From Actinomycetota bacterium (GTDB taxonomy: Bacteria; Actinomycetota; Acidimicrobiia; IMCC26256; PALSA-555), in the NCBI GenBank assembly GCA_016870355.1, contig VGBR01000001.1, positions 183,574 through 247,573 of the forward strand: a stretch of DNA of 64,000 bases, written 5' to 3'. The translations under genes were made by a program, and so were the position numbers. The notes beneath the pieces were generated by a model, which did no database searches, had not been told where the DNA came from, and was given only the letters and a program-made list of their open reading frames with translations. Positions 4,454-47,178 of this stretch are shown here, in pieces. Each line of letters begins with the position of its first letter. Position 1 is the stretch's first letter.

Positions 4454-4499
4454 GCGAGCGAGCGGCCGCGAGCCGGGTATCCAGGTTCGCAGGGAGCGA
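4454..4499. repeat. Copy 1 of dispersed palindromic element
   Basis: gcgagcgagcggccgcgagccgggtatccaggttcgcagggagcga; reverse-complement match to 9494-9543. Confidence 0.8.
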
Positions 4500-4520
4500 G
4501 CCAGGTTTGATGTTGCGACT

Positions 4521-8615: not shown

Positions 8616-10379
8616 TCAGGCCGCGGCGGGTTCGATCGGGCCGTAGCGGACGATCGGCTCGAAGTGGTCGAGCACCGTGCGGTCGTCGCCCAGCAGACCT
8701 CGGGCACGCGTCGGTGTGAGCCGTTGCGCGAAGCGGCGAGCGATGACCGCCTTGCGCGCGTCGCCGTCACGACCGAGCTGCCAGGTGGCCTCGTCGAGGA
8801 GGAGCGCACCCTCGACCAGATCGGCGAGGAGGTGCGTGAGGCGCTTGGCATTGAGGAGCTGGGTGTCGTCGTCGGCCGCGGCGTAGTGCGCGATTGCCTC
8901 CTTGGCGTCGGTCAGGGTGCTCGCCACCGCGTCGACTGCCGGCGCGAGCACTGGCTCGTGGCTCGCACCGTCGAGCGCACGCGAGACCCGGGCGAGCAAT
9001 GCTTCGTGCGCGTCCTCACCACGGATGGCGCGCCGCACGTCGAGGCAGCAGATGTTCTCCGTGCCCTCCCAGATCGTGTGGCACTGCGCGTCGCGCAGCT
9101 GCCGGGCCATCGGCCAGTCCTCCATGTAGCCGTTGCCACCGTGGATCTCGAGGCTTTCGCTCGCGGCGCGCAGGGCCTCGCGGGTGGCGCGCACCTTGGC
9201 GATCGGCACGAGGATGCGGCGCAGCATCCGGCCTTCTTCCTCGTCGGCGGTTGTGCGAGTGGCGGCTGCACACTCGAACGTCAGCGCCATGCCAGCTTCG
9301 AGCCCGACGAGCAGGTCGACCAGCGTCTCGCGGACCATCGGGTACGCGTCGATGCGTTGATCCCATTGCGTGCGGTGCGACGCGTAGATCGCGGCTTCGA
9401 GGAACGACCGCCGGTGGATGCCGAGCCCCATGAGCGCGACCCCGAACCGACTCCCGTTCACCATCTCCATCATCTTGTTCAGGCCACCTCTATTCGCTCC
9501 CTCGCTGCGAGCCGGGGTACCCGGCTCGCGGTCGCTCGCTCGCTGGGATGCCATCCATGCGCGCGCGCCGACGAGCTCGATCTCTGCGGTCGGCACCGCC
9601 TTGGTGCCGAGCTTCGGCTTCAACCGCTTGGTGTGGAAGCCGTTCGGCGTGCCGTCGGGGAGCACCCGCGGGACGATGAAGGTGGCGAGTCCGCGGGTGC
9701 CATCGGGCGCACCTTCCGGACGCGCGAGCACGATGAACACCTCCGCGTCGGCGTTCGAGCAGAAGTGCTTCTCGCCGAAGATCCGCCACTCGTCGCCGTC
9801 GGGCACCGCACGGGTCGTGTTCGCACCCACGTCACTTCCGCCCTGGCGCTCGGTGAGGAACATCCCGCCTTCCCACGCCTCCTCGGGATCGAGGCTCGTG
9901 AGCCGGCGGACGAAGTCGTCGCGCACATCGTCGGGCGCATAGCGCTCCACGATGTCGGCGGCGCCGACCGTCATGCCGAGCCCGCAGTAGATGGCGGTCT
10001 CGGCCTGGCTCACGAGGTAGTTCATCGCCGCCGTCACCACCGCGGGAACGGGTCGCCCGGCGTGGCGAGACAGACCGGTGAACCCGGCCCGTACCAGATC
10101 GGCCTTGCTCTCGACCCAGCCGGGATGGTGCTCGATGTGATCGACCTCGTGGCCCCACTCGTCGTAGCGAAGCAGCTCGGGGCCGTGCTTGTCGGACACC
10201 TCGGCGCGGCGAGCGAGCGCACCACCGCACAGCACTCCGTAGCGCGCGACGTGCTCCTCGGCGAACTCGCGATCCGCCGTGTCTGTCAGCAACCGATCGA
10301 GCAGGAGGCGCAGGTTCGGATCGGCGGCGTACCAGTCCAACCCGATCGCGCCGTCGTGCGTTGCGTAGTCGGGGAGCAT
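8616..10379 (-). CDS. Acyl-CoA dehydrogenase (588-codon form), containing the in-frame repeat copy
   Basis: MFLTERQGGSDVGANTT; FGEKHFCSNADAEVFIVLARPEG; EIHGGNGYMEDWPMARQLRDAQCHTIWEGTENI. Confidence 0.93.
   Translation of the reverse strand: MLPDYATHDGAIGLDWYAADPNLRLLLDRLLTDTADREFAEEHVARYGVLCGGALARRAEVSDKHGPELLRYDEWGHEVDHIEHHPGWVESKADLVRAGFTGLSRHAGRPVPAVVTAAMNYLVSQAETAIYCGLGMTVGAADIVERYAPDDVRDDFVRRLTSLDPEEAWEGGMFLTERQGGSDVGANTTRAVPDGDEWRIFGEKHFCSNADAEVFIVLARPEGAPDGTRGLATFIVPRVLPDGTPNGFHTKRLKPKLGTKAVPTAEIELVGARAWMASQRASDREPGTPARSEGANRGGLNKMMEMVNGSRFGVALMGLGIHRRSFLEAAIYASHRTQWDQRIDAYPMVRETLVDLLVGLEAGMALTFECAAATRTTADEEEGRMLRRILVPIAKVRATREALRAASESLEIHGGNGYMEDWPMARQLRDAQCHTIWEGTENICCLDVRRAIRGEDAHEALLARVSRALDGASHEPVLAPAVDAVASTLTDAKEAIAHYAAADDDTQLLNAKRLTHLLADLVEGALLLDEATWQLGRDGDARKAVIARRFAQRLTPTRARGLLGDDRTVLDHFEPIVRYGPIEPAAA
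9494..9543. repeat. Copy 2 of dispersed palindromic element, inside the acyl-CoA dehydrogenase ORF
   Basis: tcgctccctcgctgcgagccggggtacccggctcgcggtcgctcgctcgc with perfect 10-bp stem gcgagccggg/cccggctcgc; both strands' spurious ORFs share peptides with copy 1 (ASERPRAGYPGSQ). Confidence 0.82.
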
Positions 10380-10425
10380 CGTCACGAGGCTACCCGAGCC
10401 CCTCTTGGTCACTAGCGTGCGGCGC

Positions 10426-10890
10426 ATGTTCCGTGCGGCCGCAGTCGCGTTCACAGTGTTGATGGCCTCCGCGTGCAGCGGCGCGACGCCGTTGAGCATC
10501 GAGGAGTTCACGAAGCGTGCGAACCAGGAGTGCGCATCGCTTCAGTCGGCGAGCAACGCGTTCCGCAAGGCACAAGATCCATCGTTCACCGGCGATCAGG
10601 TGACGCGCTTCTTGGGGAAGATTGCCGACCGCCTGCGCGGGTTGGTCGCGAACATCGACGAGCTCGAGCCACCCGACGCGATGCAGTCGGACGTCGATGA
10701 CCTCCTCGACGTGCTCGCGGAGTACGCCGACGGGCTCGACGAGCTCGGAGAGAAGACCGCGCCTGGTCAGACCTTCCAAGGTGTGCTCGAGGAGAGCACC
10801 GGCAAGGTCAACGCGCTCAACGAACTCGCGACCGAGGCGACCGTGCTCGTGGGCAACCTCGGCCTCGTGAGCTGCATCCTGCCTGCGTAA
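10426..10890 (+). CDS. Putative lipoprotein, alpha-helical, two Cys in mature domain
   Basis: MFRAAAVAFTVLMASACSG lipobox. Confidence 0.65.
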   Translation: MFRAAAVAFTVLMASACSGATPLSIEEFTKRANQECASLQSASNAFRKAQDPSFTGDQVTRFLGKIADRLRGLVANIDELEPPDAMQSDVDDLLDVLAEYADGLDELGEKTAPGQTFQGVLEESTGKVNALNELATEATVLVGNLGLVSCILPA

Positions 10891-11790: not shown

Positions 11791-12224
11791 GTCGAGTTGG
11801 CGCGACCACCTGTCGGCGCGCACGCACTTGCCCGCGCGTGCGCGTCGACAGCATGATCCCGATTGACCTAGGGCCGGGCGGGGGAGGTCGCTCGGTGTTG
11901 GAATGGATCGTCCGGTCCGGTTCCCGCAACGAGCGGTCACTGCCCAGCCCCACCGCTGCGGGAACCTCCGGATGAAGGGGCGCCCTGTCGAGGCGGATCT
12001 CGTGCCCAACCGCTTCCGGGGCGCCCCACCTTCTTCTCGTCGAGCACCTTCTTGTCGGTCCGCTCGGGCGCTTGCTTGAGCAACGGCTGACACGCACTGC
12101 TGTGTTCGCACGGCGTCTTCCCGTCGCCAGCCCAGATTCCGCTCTTGGGCGAAGCGCAGGCCGCTAGGCCCCGGCTCCCTGCGCCGTGGGATACCCACGC
12201 CGCGATCGGTAGCCTTTGCGCCTC

Positions 12225-20886: not shown

Positions 20887-21022
20887 GATTCCTCCCGTGT
20901 CCGCTGCGGCGCAGGGTACCTGCGCCGCGGACGCTCACCAGCGGGTGCGAGCGCCCTCGCTGCGCTCGGTCGCCGCCGGTATTCGACGATCCCGAAACGG
21001 CGTGTTCTGCCACACTGCTGCG

Positions 21023-40139: not shown

Positions 40140-40649
40140 GTCGCCGTGCTTGGTATCTCTCGGGACCCGTGCGCTCCCGGCCCCGGCCCGCCCCGAGAAG
40201 GCCGGGACCGCGAGCGCCGGTCGCTCGGTGCTCAACCCCCGCTGAACACCTCGGAACTGCTCACGATCACCCGGTCCGACTCGAGCGTGCCCTCTCGAGC
40301 CGATGCGGTTGCTCCATGGCTGTCCACCCCTGCGCCGACCCGGCTCGTCCCGCGACCGACTGCCCACCGGTCTTGGAAGAGCTCTGGTCTGCGAGCCATG
40401 GGTCCTCGTGTGCGTCGGGTCCAACGAACACAACCGGCACCCAACACTCTGCACGTGCAGAGCGGGGGCCGGTTTCGCCTGGCTCCCCGTCGTCCCTAGC
40501 GACCAGTTGTCGGACGACGGATCGTTGCCTCCCTGAGCAGGTGGCTCGATCGTCCTCGCCTCAGCCACTCTTCGTGGCCGAGCAGGAGCAGCAAACCACG
40601 GAGAGTGGCACGAGTCAAGGGAAAGCTTCCGGCCGGTACGCTCCGAGGC

Positions 40650-45428: not shown

Positions 45429-46715
45429 TCACCCGACGCCGCAGCTGTTCTCGATGAAGCTCTCGAGGCGCTCCGACGCGGCGTCGAGAGCCGGGTCGTC
45501 GCCGGCAGCTGGGGCCGCGGCAAGCGAGAAGTCGGCGGCCTCGAGTTGGGTGAGCAGCGCGTCGAGTGCGCGGCTCAGGAGCGCAGTGTCGGCCGCGATC
45601 GCGTCGGGCGCGAGCGGCTTGAGGCGTCCGAGGTATTCCGCGTTCGTCCGGAAGTAGTCCTCGACATCTTCGGGCGCCGGCGACGCGGGTCCCTTGGCGC
45701 CACCGCTGGCATTGCGCGGCAACGTCTCGACCCATTCCGCAGCCACCTCACAGAAGTCCTCGGACGCGGCTGTCGTGGTCGTCGTCGGCCTGCTGTCGCT
45801 GGATCCTCCGCCGCTGAGCGCGGCGAAGACGCCCGCAGCTGCGACTGCGGTCGCGAGCGCTACCCCGCCGACCGCGAGCCTTCGCGTCGAGCCCAGGCCG
45901 GGCGGGTACGACCGTCCCCCACTCGTACCCGACCGGGTCTCGAGGGCGCCGAGCGTGCGGTCGCGGAGGATTGCCGGCGCCGTCGCAATCGGCACGGTGG
46001 CGAGCAGCGCGATCGGGCTCGCCAGCGCTCGCCGCCGCTCGAAGCACGTCTCGCACGAGTCGACATGCCGCGTGACCCGACGGCGGACGTCCGGCGCATA
46101 CGCGCCGTCCCAATCAGCGAGCATCGCAGCGAGCTCGGGGCAGTCGCGCCGTCCGAGGCGCGCCACCAGCAGCGCGCCGAGCGCACGCTCGACCCGCTTG
46201 CGGACATTCGAGGCCAACACGTATGCGTGTTCGCGTCGAACGCCCAGCGCGTCCGCAAGCTCGGCACCGTCGAGACCTTGGCGCACGCTCAGATCGAGGA
46301 CGGCCCGGTCGCGCGGTTCCAGCCCACCAGCCGCGGCCCAAACGAGCTCACGCAGCTCGGCTTCCTCGACTTGCAGTTCCGGACTTTCCGCCGCGGGCGC
46401 CGCCATGTCCGGCGGCTCCTGGAGATCGAAGCCTGCGCTGCGGCGGGCGCGACGGAGTGCCTCGTGCCGCGCGATCGCGTACAGCCAGGCGCGCACTCGC
46501 GCCGGATCACGTAGGCGCGCGAGGTGCTGCCAGGCGAGCATGAAGGTCTCCTGGGTCGCGTCGGCCGCCTCCTCGTTGCTGCGCAAGGTCGCCCGACAGA
46601 AGTCGTGGATCCGGTCGGCGTACCGGTCGTAGATCGCGGCGAAGGCGTCGCGGTCGCCCGCGAGCGCCTGCGCCACGAGTTCGGCGTCGTCGTTCGTCAC
46701 TTCACGCGGTGACAC
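45429..46715 (-). CDS. ECF sigma factor fused to ZAS-like zinc finger, TM helix and extracellular domain
   Basis: Sigma region 2 (DRDAFAAIYDRYADRIHDFCRATLRSNEEAADATQETF), region 4, HVDSCETC (Hx3Cx2C), TM LAVGGVALATAVAAAGVFAAL, TTTTTAASEDFC..ENSCGVG domain. Confidence 0.88.
   Translation of the reverse strand: MSPREVTNDDAELVAQALAGDRDAFAAIYDRYADRIHDFCRATLRSNEEAADATQETFMLAWQHLARLRDPARVRAWLYAIARHEALRRARRSAGFDLQEPPDMAAPAAESPELQVEEAELRELVWAAAGGLEPRDRAVLDLSVRQGLDGAELADALGVRREHAYVLASNVRKRVERALGALLVARLGRRDCPELAAMLADWDGAYAPDVRRRVTRHVDSCETCFERRRALASPIALLATVPIATAPAILRDRTLGALETRSGTSGGRSYPPGLGSTRRLAVGGVALATAVAAAGVFAALSGGGSSDSRPTTTTTAASEDFCEVAAEWVETLPRNASGGAKGPASPAPEDVEDYFRTNAEYLGRLKPLAPDAIAADTALLSRALDALLTQLEAADFSLAAAPAAGDDPALDAASERLESFIENSCGVG
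45646..45785. repeat. 140-bp near-identical block, copy in sigma-fusion gene
   Basis: 3 mismatches over 140 nt to 46931-47070. Confidence 0.92.
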
Positions 46716-47178
46716 CGCACGCGGTCTCGATGTAGCTCTCCAGCGTGGCGCGGTCGGCCAGAAGCGTCGGGTCCGACGCGTTCGCCGCCGCGACCGAGAA
46801 GTCGAAGTTGCTGGCCTCGAGATCCTCGAGCAGTCCGACCGACGCCGGGTGCAGCCGGCTCAGAGCATCGGCGACAGCGGGCGTCGCCTGGCCCGAGAGC
46901 TCGTCGAGTCGCCCGAGGTACTCGGTGTCGGTCCGGAAGTAATCCTCGACATCTTCCGGCGCCGGCGACGCGGGTCCCTGGGCGCCACCGCTGGCATTGC
47001 GCGGCAACGTCTCGACCCATTCCGCAGCCACCTCACAGAAGTCCTCGGACGCGGCTGTCGTGGTCGTCGTTGCGCTCGCCGACGTGCTGTCGTCGGACGA
47101 ACAGGCCCCTGCGCTGAGCGCAAGGGCGGCGGCGGCCACGGCCAGCAGGTACGAGCGGTGCCTTGAACGGTTGGTCAT
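46702..47178 (-). CDS. Lipoprotein carrying the same extracellular domain
   Basis: Lipobox LALSAGACSSDD; TTTTTAASEDFCEVAAEWVETLPRNASGGAQGPASPAPEDVEDYFRT; overlaps start of the sigma gene by 14 nt. Confidence 0.88.
   Translation of the reverse strand: MTNRSRHRSYLLAVAAAALALSAGACSSDDSTSASATTTTTAASEDFCEVAAEWVETLPRNASGGAQGPASPAPEDVEDYFRTDTEYLGRLDELSGQATPAVADALSRLHPASVGLLEDLEASNFDFSVAAANASDPTLLADRATLESYIETACGVTA
46931..47070. repeat. 140-bp near-identical block, copy in lipoprotein gene
   Basis: See 45646-45785. Confidence 0.92.

Follow-up and report, generated by a model that had tools for sequence, protein, structure and literature searches.

Can a perfect palindrome lie in frame inside a conserved enzyme gene because it is a copy of a mobile, protein-coding repeat? 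The question arose from a 64,000-nt stretch of actinobacterial DNA (the window), part of a 2.8-Mb genome of 31 contigs (G000). A preliminary description had placed a 50-nt string at 9494-9543, with a perfect 10-bp stem and a 3-nt loop. When the window sequence was re-read, the string was located there as first described, and the hairpin was read directly at 9507-9529 (GCGAGCCGGG-GTA-CCCGGCTCGC); it lies in frame in a 631-codon minus-strand open reading frame (8616-10511). The odd peptide attributed to it is indeed encoded there, as ..GARAWMA-SQRASDREPGTPARSEGAN-R-GGLNKMME.., with edges that had been drawn one A and one R short. The match in reverse complement to a second copy also held, and the alignment gap once proposed for it proved unneeded: 48 nt at 4454-4501 and 9496-9543 are 88% complementary.

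Using a covariance model, we found four copies in the window. They are given here with the host gene and the stem:

8616-10511, minus strand: host gene, AidB-like acyl-CoA dehydrogenase, start codon uncertain; Pfam AidB_N, Acyl-CoA_dh_M, Acyl-CoA_dh_1
9488-9543, minus strand: in-frame element copy, 5' flank GAGCGAGCGACC, 3' flank AGCGAGGGAGCGAATAGAG, hairpin between; all 56 model positions, 71.6 bits, E 1.2e-15
9507-9529, minus strand: 10-bp stem with TAC triloop, minus-strand reading GCGAGCCGGG TAC CCCGGCTCGC
4454-4509, plus strand: second copy, degenerate stem (8/10 pairs), hairpin 4468-4490; 64.8 bits, E 5.9e-14
12162-12217, minus strand: longer subtype B copy, intergenic, hairpin 12181-12203, then GGGGCCTAGCGGCCTGCGC.. 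arms; 34.8 bits, E 1.7e-6
20887-20942, minus strand: copy with perfect stem GCGGCGCAGG TAC CCTGCGCCGC; 39.8 bits, E 1e-7

The dehydrogenase linker

The insert occupies about residues 318-337 of the dehydrogenase, whose nearest solved relatives are ACDH-11 and AidB, and separates two Pfam domains, the middle one (217-313) and the C-terminal one (342-496). Orthologous copies are present in the dehydrogenase genes of G000, G001 and G002, with the stem kept, the residues changed, and compensatory differences such as A-T to G-C at stem pair 4. The G003 gene has no copy, and in G016, from another family, a related palindrome occupies the same linker. Because repeats are present there in several lineages, we regard the linker as an apparently tolerant site at which they have been taken up.

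Does the palindrome simply lengthen the protein? The expectation of 18-21 extra residues relative to homologous dehydrogenases found no support. Measured from RLKPKLGT to MM[EL]VNG, the linker has 58 residues here and 51-66 in palindrome-free relatives. A clean net insertion is not supported, nor is a simple net gain shown, because linker length already varies among homologues without repeats.

Another genus also has repeats in this linker: G010 carries three 72-nt tandem units (GAGCGAGCGACCCC..; L030 1019-1249), in frame and weakly similar to the element.

A folded, oriented repeat in many copies

Is the palindrome one of a pair or one of a family? The whole-genome search with the covariance model returned at least 90 copies in G000, not two; 93 candidates were scored per genome, so this count is a lower bound. 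With several of these copies in frame in unrelated conserved genes, the earlier suggestion that this lineage may have a protein-coding palindromic element comparable to that of Rickettsia is supported, and neither of the conditions named in advance for its refutation applies. A direct pattern search of G000 for GCGNNNNGGGNANCCCNNNNCGC found 47 exact matches; almost every one is a perfect or near-perfect palindrome with a TAY loop, and the reversed-pattern control gave 0. The stems are diverse yet paired, ranging from GCGCATCGGG-TAT-CCCGATGCGC to GCGGCACGGG-TAT-CCCGTGCCGC.

Could such palindromes be quasi-palindromes that arose by chance or mutation in simple sequence of the GC-rich GAGCGAG type, with no mobile unit behind them? 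The flanks are indeed GAGCG-rich and the GC content is 69%, but a 56-column unit is conserved, E-values reach 1e-15, there are empty sites, and the controls, with zero reversed-pattern matches in carriers, refute the idea. We give it practically no credence.

The collected copies align gap-free over this 56-column unit, with invariant loop and flanks. The oriented reading is (GG)GAGCGARYGNCC, a 10-bp stem with a TAY loop, ARYGAGCGANCNA and then often RTRGWG; in the consensus, GAGCGARYGNCC leads into a GCGNNNNGGG-TAY-CCCNNNNCGC hairpin followed by ARYGAGCGANC. Members of this strand-oriented family are about 55 nt long and reach about 95 nt if a second hairpin lies upstream; the short unit of 55-56 nt is taken from the tandem period, and its ends are approximate. 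The second hairpin lies directly upstream and ends in ..TCGCC. It is present in 24 of 49 aligned G000 copies, its arms covary by eye (GGATCCC..GGGATCT, GGCACCC..GGGTGCT), and at one orthologous site G001 has it and G000 does not. Subtype B has further GC hairpins downstream. None of the 4227 Rfam models matches over the elements.

Across 85 sequences, 92.6% of stem cells are paired. Changes on both sides of a pair numbered 116, whereas shuffles gave 32.5 +/- 5.2 and no slid control exceeded 21; the covariation score was 0.279, compared with at most 0.07 in slid controls. Covariation extends beyond the hairpin (columns 9-40, 10-39, 5-44 and 1-48), around columns reading GA/GA, which we interpret as probable tandem G.A pairs lengthening the helix. 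A frequent G012 variant has GA/GA in place of two stem pairs (GCGAGCCGGG..CCCGGCGAGC). Stem mismatches were G.T or T.G in 19 cases versus A.C or C.A in 4, and G.A or A.G in 43 versus C.T or T.C in 1. That G.T and G.A occur and their mirror mismatches A.C and C.T rarely do shows that the relevant fold is that of a single strand, in most cases the one that is sense for the adjacent genes. The hairpin is kept even where it is translated.

Placement between genes and in frame

Where do the copies lie? By a codon model trained on the window, 42 of 53 G000 copies are intergenic, and for 37 of these 42 the downstream gene is on the same strand (p 4e-7). A coding start follows 8-30 nt 3' of the hairpin in 24 of the 53, in one phase in 19 of those 24; distances before the start codon are often 13-22 nt (13 nt in 8 copies, 19 nt in 9). 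Most intergenic G000 copies sit between stop and start codons in the atp, nuo, ribosomal and glnB-glnD operons. The neighbours, named from protein starts, include atpA-atpG, atpD-atpC, nuoH-nuoI-nuoJ, rplW-rplB, nusG-rplK, purS-purQ and glnB-glnD. The last pair flanks the copy at 4454-4509, between a P-II (glnB-type) gene and a glnD-type gene (names inferred from protein sequence), and G001 has the orthologous copy. In G012 the start-codon phase is absent and the orientation bias is weaker than in G000. A single fixed target (ATG), at which G000 hinted, was rejected; no target is claimed because in G012 the copies commonly lie next to stop codons and have AGG at their end.

Might the hairpins be intrinsic transcription terminators, given that their stems are strong, GC-rich and located in transcribed regions? 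However, the T-run after the stem is absent in aligned copies, and copies lie 13-22 nt upstream of operon starts and within coding sequences. We consider this function highly improbable.

Translated copies were found in the AidB-like dehydrogenase, the PHP domain of a DnaE-type polymerase (dnaE2), MutM, the tails of L10 (rplJ) and L4 (rplD), NuoC near its N-terminus, NuoL (in antisense orientation), a SnoaL-like protein and a ThiS/MoaD-like tail. Element-encoded segments read REPGTPARSEGANR in the dehydrogenase, SELAGAASVRGAGNPPR in MutM and DGVPPAAASEAVE in L10. The clean empty/filled site is mutM, where G000 has 24 extra residues: its loop is DTSGERSELAGAASVRGAGNPPRSECDQSAGPTIGLHLGMSG, versus DTDDGAGPVIGLHLGMSG in G001. 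The loop is similarly short in G003 and 12 other relatives, so that the search for empty sites proposed earlier found the insert missing from two congeners and 12 further relatives. G002 has a degenerate copy at the same place. In the rplD C-terminal tail, G000 and G001 both have a copy, in different frames (RERGTPARSE* versus ERAPADGVPPAAASEA).

The ThiS/MoaD-like carrier protein (L076 1484-1759, minus strand) has a GG end, then the element-encoded tail, with its stop beside the start of the next gene; in G001 there are two tandem copies. If the GG end is used, the tail would have to be cleaved off.

Spread and kinship of the repeat

How widely is the element distributed, and does it move? 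The oriented pattern was present in 14 of 396 genomes of the class, most of the compared genomes being draft MAGs. All 14 belong to the window's order, and none was found in the 338 genomes sampled from the remaining orders of that class. All four genomes of the window's genus carry it; in the other eight of the family, six had 0 copies and two had 4-5 model matches. Model counts were at least 90 in G000, at least 92 in G001, at least 93 in G012, 71 in G016, 48 in G052 and 43 in G014, and carriers are scattered patchily through a single order. Because the predominant stems differ from genome to genome, the data suggest separate bursts of spread. Of about 11 orthologous sites compared in G000 and G001, roughly half have a copy in one species only; empty sites in G001 include L009, L008-1646, mutM and rplW-rplB. 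In G012 we saw tandem 55-56-nt arrays and copies lodged in the loop of a different repeat hairpin (L172, L166, L200). The family has apparently been active recently.

We conclude that the palindrome is probably a copy of a short non-autonomous mobile repeat, which spreads to new sites and is tolerated between genes and in frame. The repeat unit would be an oriented folded strand, its helix lengthened by tandem G.A pairs and often preceded by a variable extra hairpin, and it would multiply and insert at new sites. Surviving copies would mostly be those in short intergenic gaps, in G000 typically from a stop codon to the next operon start, where this placement would leave translation undisrupted. 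Others would survive in frame at tolerant sites in proteins, in loops or tails, where translation of the repeat, which has almost no stop codons, would yield 18-26 hydrophilic, probably disordered residues. Insertion is presumably enzyme-driven, the active form may be single-stranded (RNA or ssDNA), and continued compensation would reflect structural selection or re-mobilisation.

Might the host instead select these hairpins as leader or intercistronic RNA elements that serve the stability or processing of mRNA or the coupling of translation, mobility being either a secondary trait or an ancient one? The strand-specific fold in sense orientation, the fixed distance to start codons and the highly expressed operons (atp, nuo, ribosomal) would fit such a role. 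However, copies lie in frame in dnaE2, mutM, nuoL (antisense) and the dehydrogenase, sister species have copies in different genes, and occurrence is patchy: close relatives with these same operons have zero copies. We think this explanation unlikely.

What, then, might move the repeat? The single-strand, orientation-specific hairpins and the target-like fixed 3' neighbours recall miniature elements of REP/RAYT type or derived from IS200/IS605, which a Y1 (HUH) transposase would move. However, Y1_Tnp (RAYT-type) had no match in any of the 14 carrier genomes, while controls matched in five genomes, and GTAG is missing at the hairpin 5' foot; this origin is already largely refuted and very unlikely. 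A reverse-transcriptase partner was rejected as not required, since its presence is uncorrelated with the element: absent from G000, G002, G003, G014, G029, G052 and G053, present in G001, G012 and G016. Returning to the mobile repeat, a bolder and rather doubtful proposal is a new class of element that spreads as one specific folded strand. An enzyme with no kinship to Y1 transposases or to reverse transcriptase would recognise its hairpin and tandem G.A pairs, and the element would home to operon stop/start junctions and code acceptably in several frames.

Among known repeats, Rickettsia palindromic elements (RPE) and the protein-coding palindromes of Wolbachia lie between genes and in frame in conserved genes, translated as extra residues (PMC10969869, PMC2229807). 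The present element resembles RPE in lying in frame in several unrelated genes (mutM, rplD, rplJ, nuoC, nuoL, dnaE2, dehydrogenase). RPE measure 105-146 or about 150 bp and have been described from Rickettsiales, whereas our element measures 55-56 nt (long form about 95 nt), belongs to an actinobacterial order, and is GC-rich and gene-oriented, with tandem G.A pairs and one-strand covariation; the comparison is with RPE as described.

Mycobacterial interspersed repetitive units (MIRUs) share the orientation of genes and are not known to have dyad symmetry. They are short actinobacterial operon repeats, apparently mobile, that insert at start codons with translation continuing (PMC12548453). 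Like them, our element lies in operons, is gene-oriented and adjoins start codons (in G000; more weakly in G012), but its conserved core is a strong hairpin and copies also lie within genes. With regard to the MIRU trait of an ORF in the unit overlapping the next start codon by 4 nt, element tails such as GTGATG and GTAGAGATG place stops and starts nearby, with no single fixed overlap.

REP/REPIN (GTAG) and CGTC repeats are 20-40-bp hairpins in many copies, with compensated stems, G-T pairs and some intragenic units, and there are CGTC families without a dedicated transposase; the text describing them makes no mention of Actinobacteria (PMC3733652). Our element shares the many hairpin copies, the compensated stems, the G-T pairs and the occasional intragenic units. 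It differs in its 3-nt TAY loop, 10-bp stem and lack of a RAYT gene (0 of 14 carriers). No GTAG-type tetranucleotide was found at the hairpin 5' foot, which reads NCC, the RTRG motif lying 13 nt 3' of the hairpin. Nor is a CGTC tag the consensus at one end: the sequence there is CGNCC, and about 10-20% of copies have the T. The element thus functions like a Rickettsia-type protein-coding palindrome and like a start-adjoining MIRU, shares the defining features of neither in full, and is most aptly described as a new REP-like family with a conserved structure. A literature search on palindromic repeats in Acidimicrobiia found nothing relevant; the mobile repeat is previously undescribed.

Protein-coding palindromes, once described as confined to Rickettsia and later reported from Wolbachia, now have a large family in a distant phylum. 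Comparative data can now address three questions: by what route mobile hairpins get into essential genes and leave them working, whether they give ribosomal and respiratory proteins extra disordered segments, and what mobilises REP-like repeats where RAYT is lacking. Caution is due with predicted gene starts and linkers in these genomes, which may be repeat-derived.

Some minor observations accompany this work. In named collections the element occurred only in MAGs titled Acidimicrobiia or Actinomycetota, plus one titled Bifidobacterium breve; the CAMDCC01 contigs under that last title (L116, L125) carry the Acidimicrobiia-type element, and the title is probably wrong. These genomes have a second repeat family, a GC hairpin GCCCGAGCGGCCCGG..GAGAGCGG with short element copies in its loop (G012 L172, L166, L200). 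The window also holds a c-di-GMP-II-GAG riboswitch aptamer (40458-40541, minus strand; score above the Rfam gathering threshold) and a 215-nt direct repeat, 85% identical, at 45571-45785 and 46856-47070, spaced 1285 nt.
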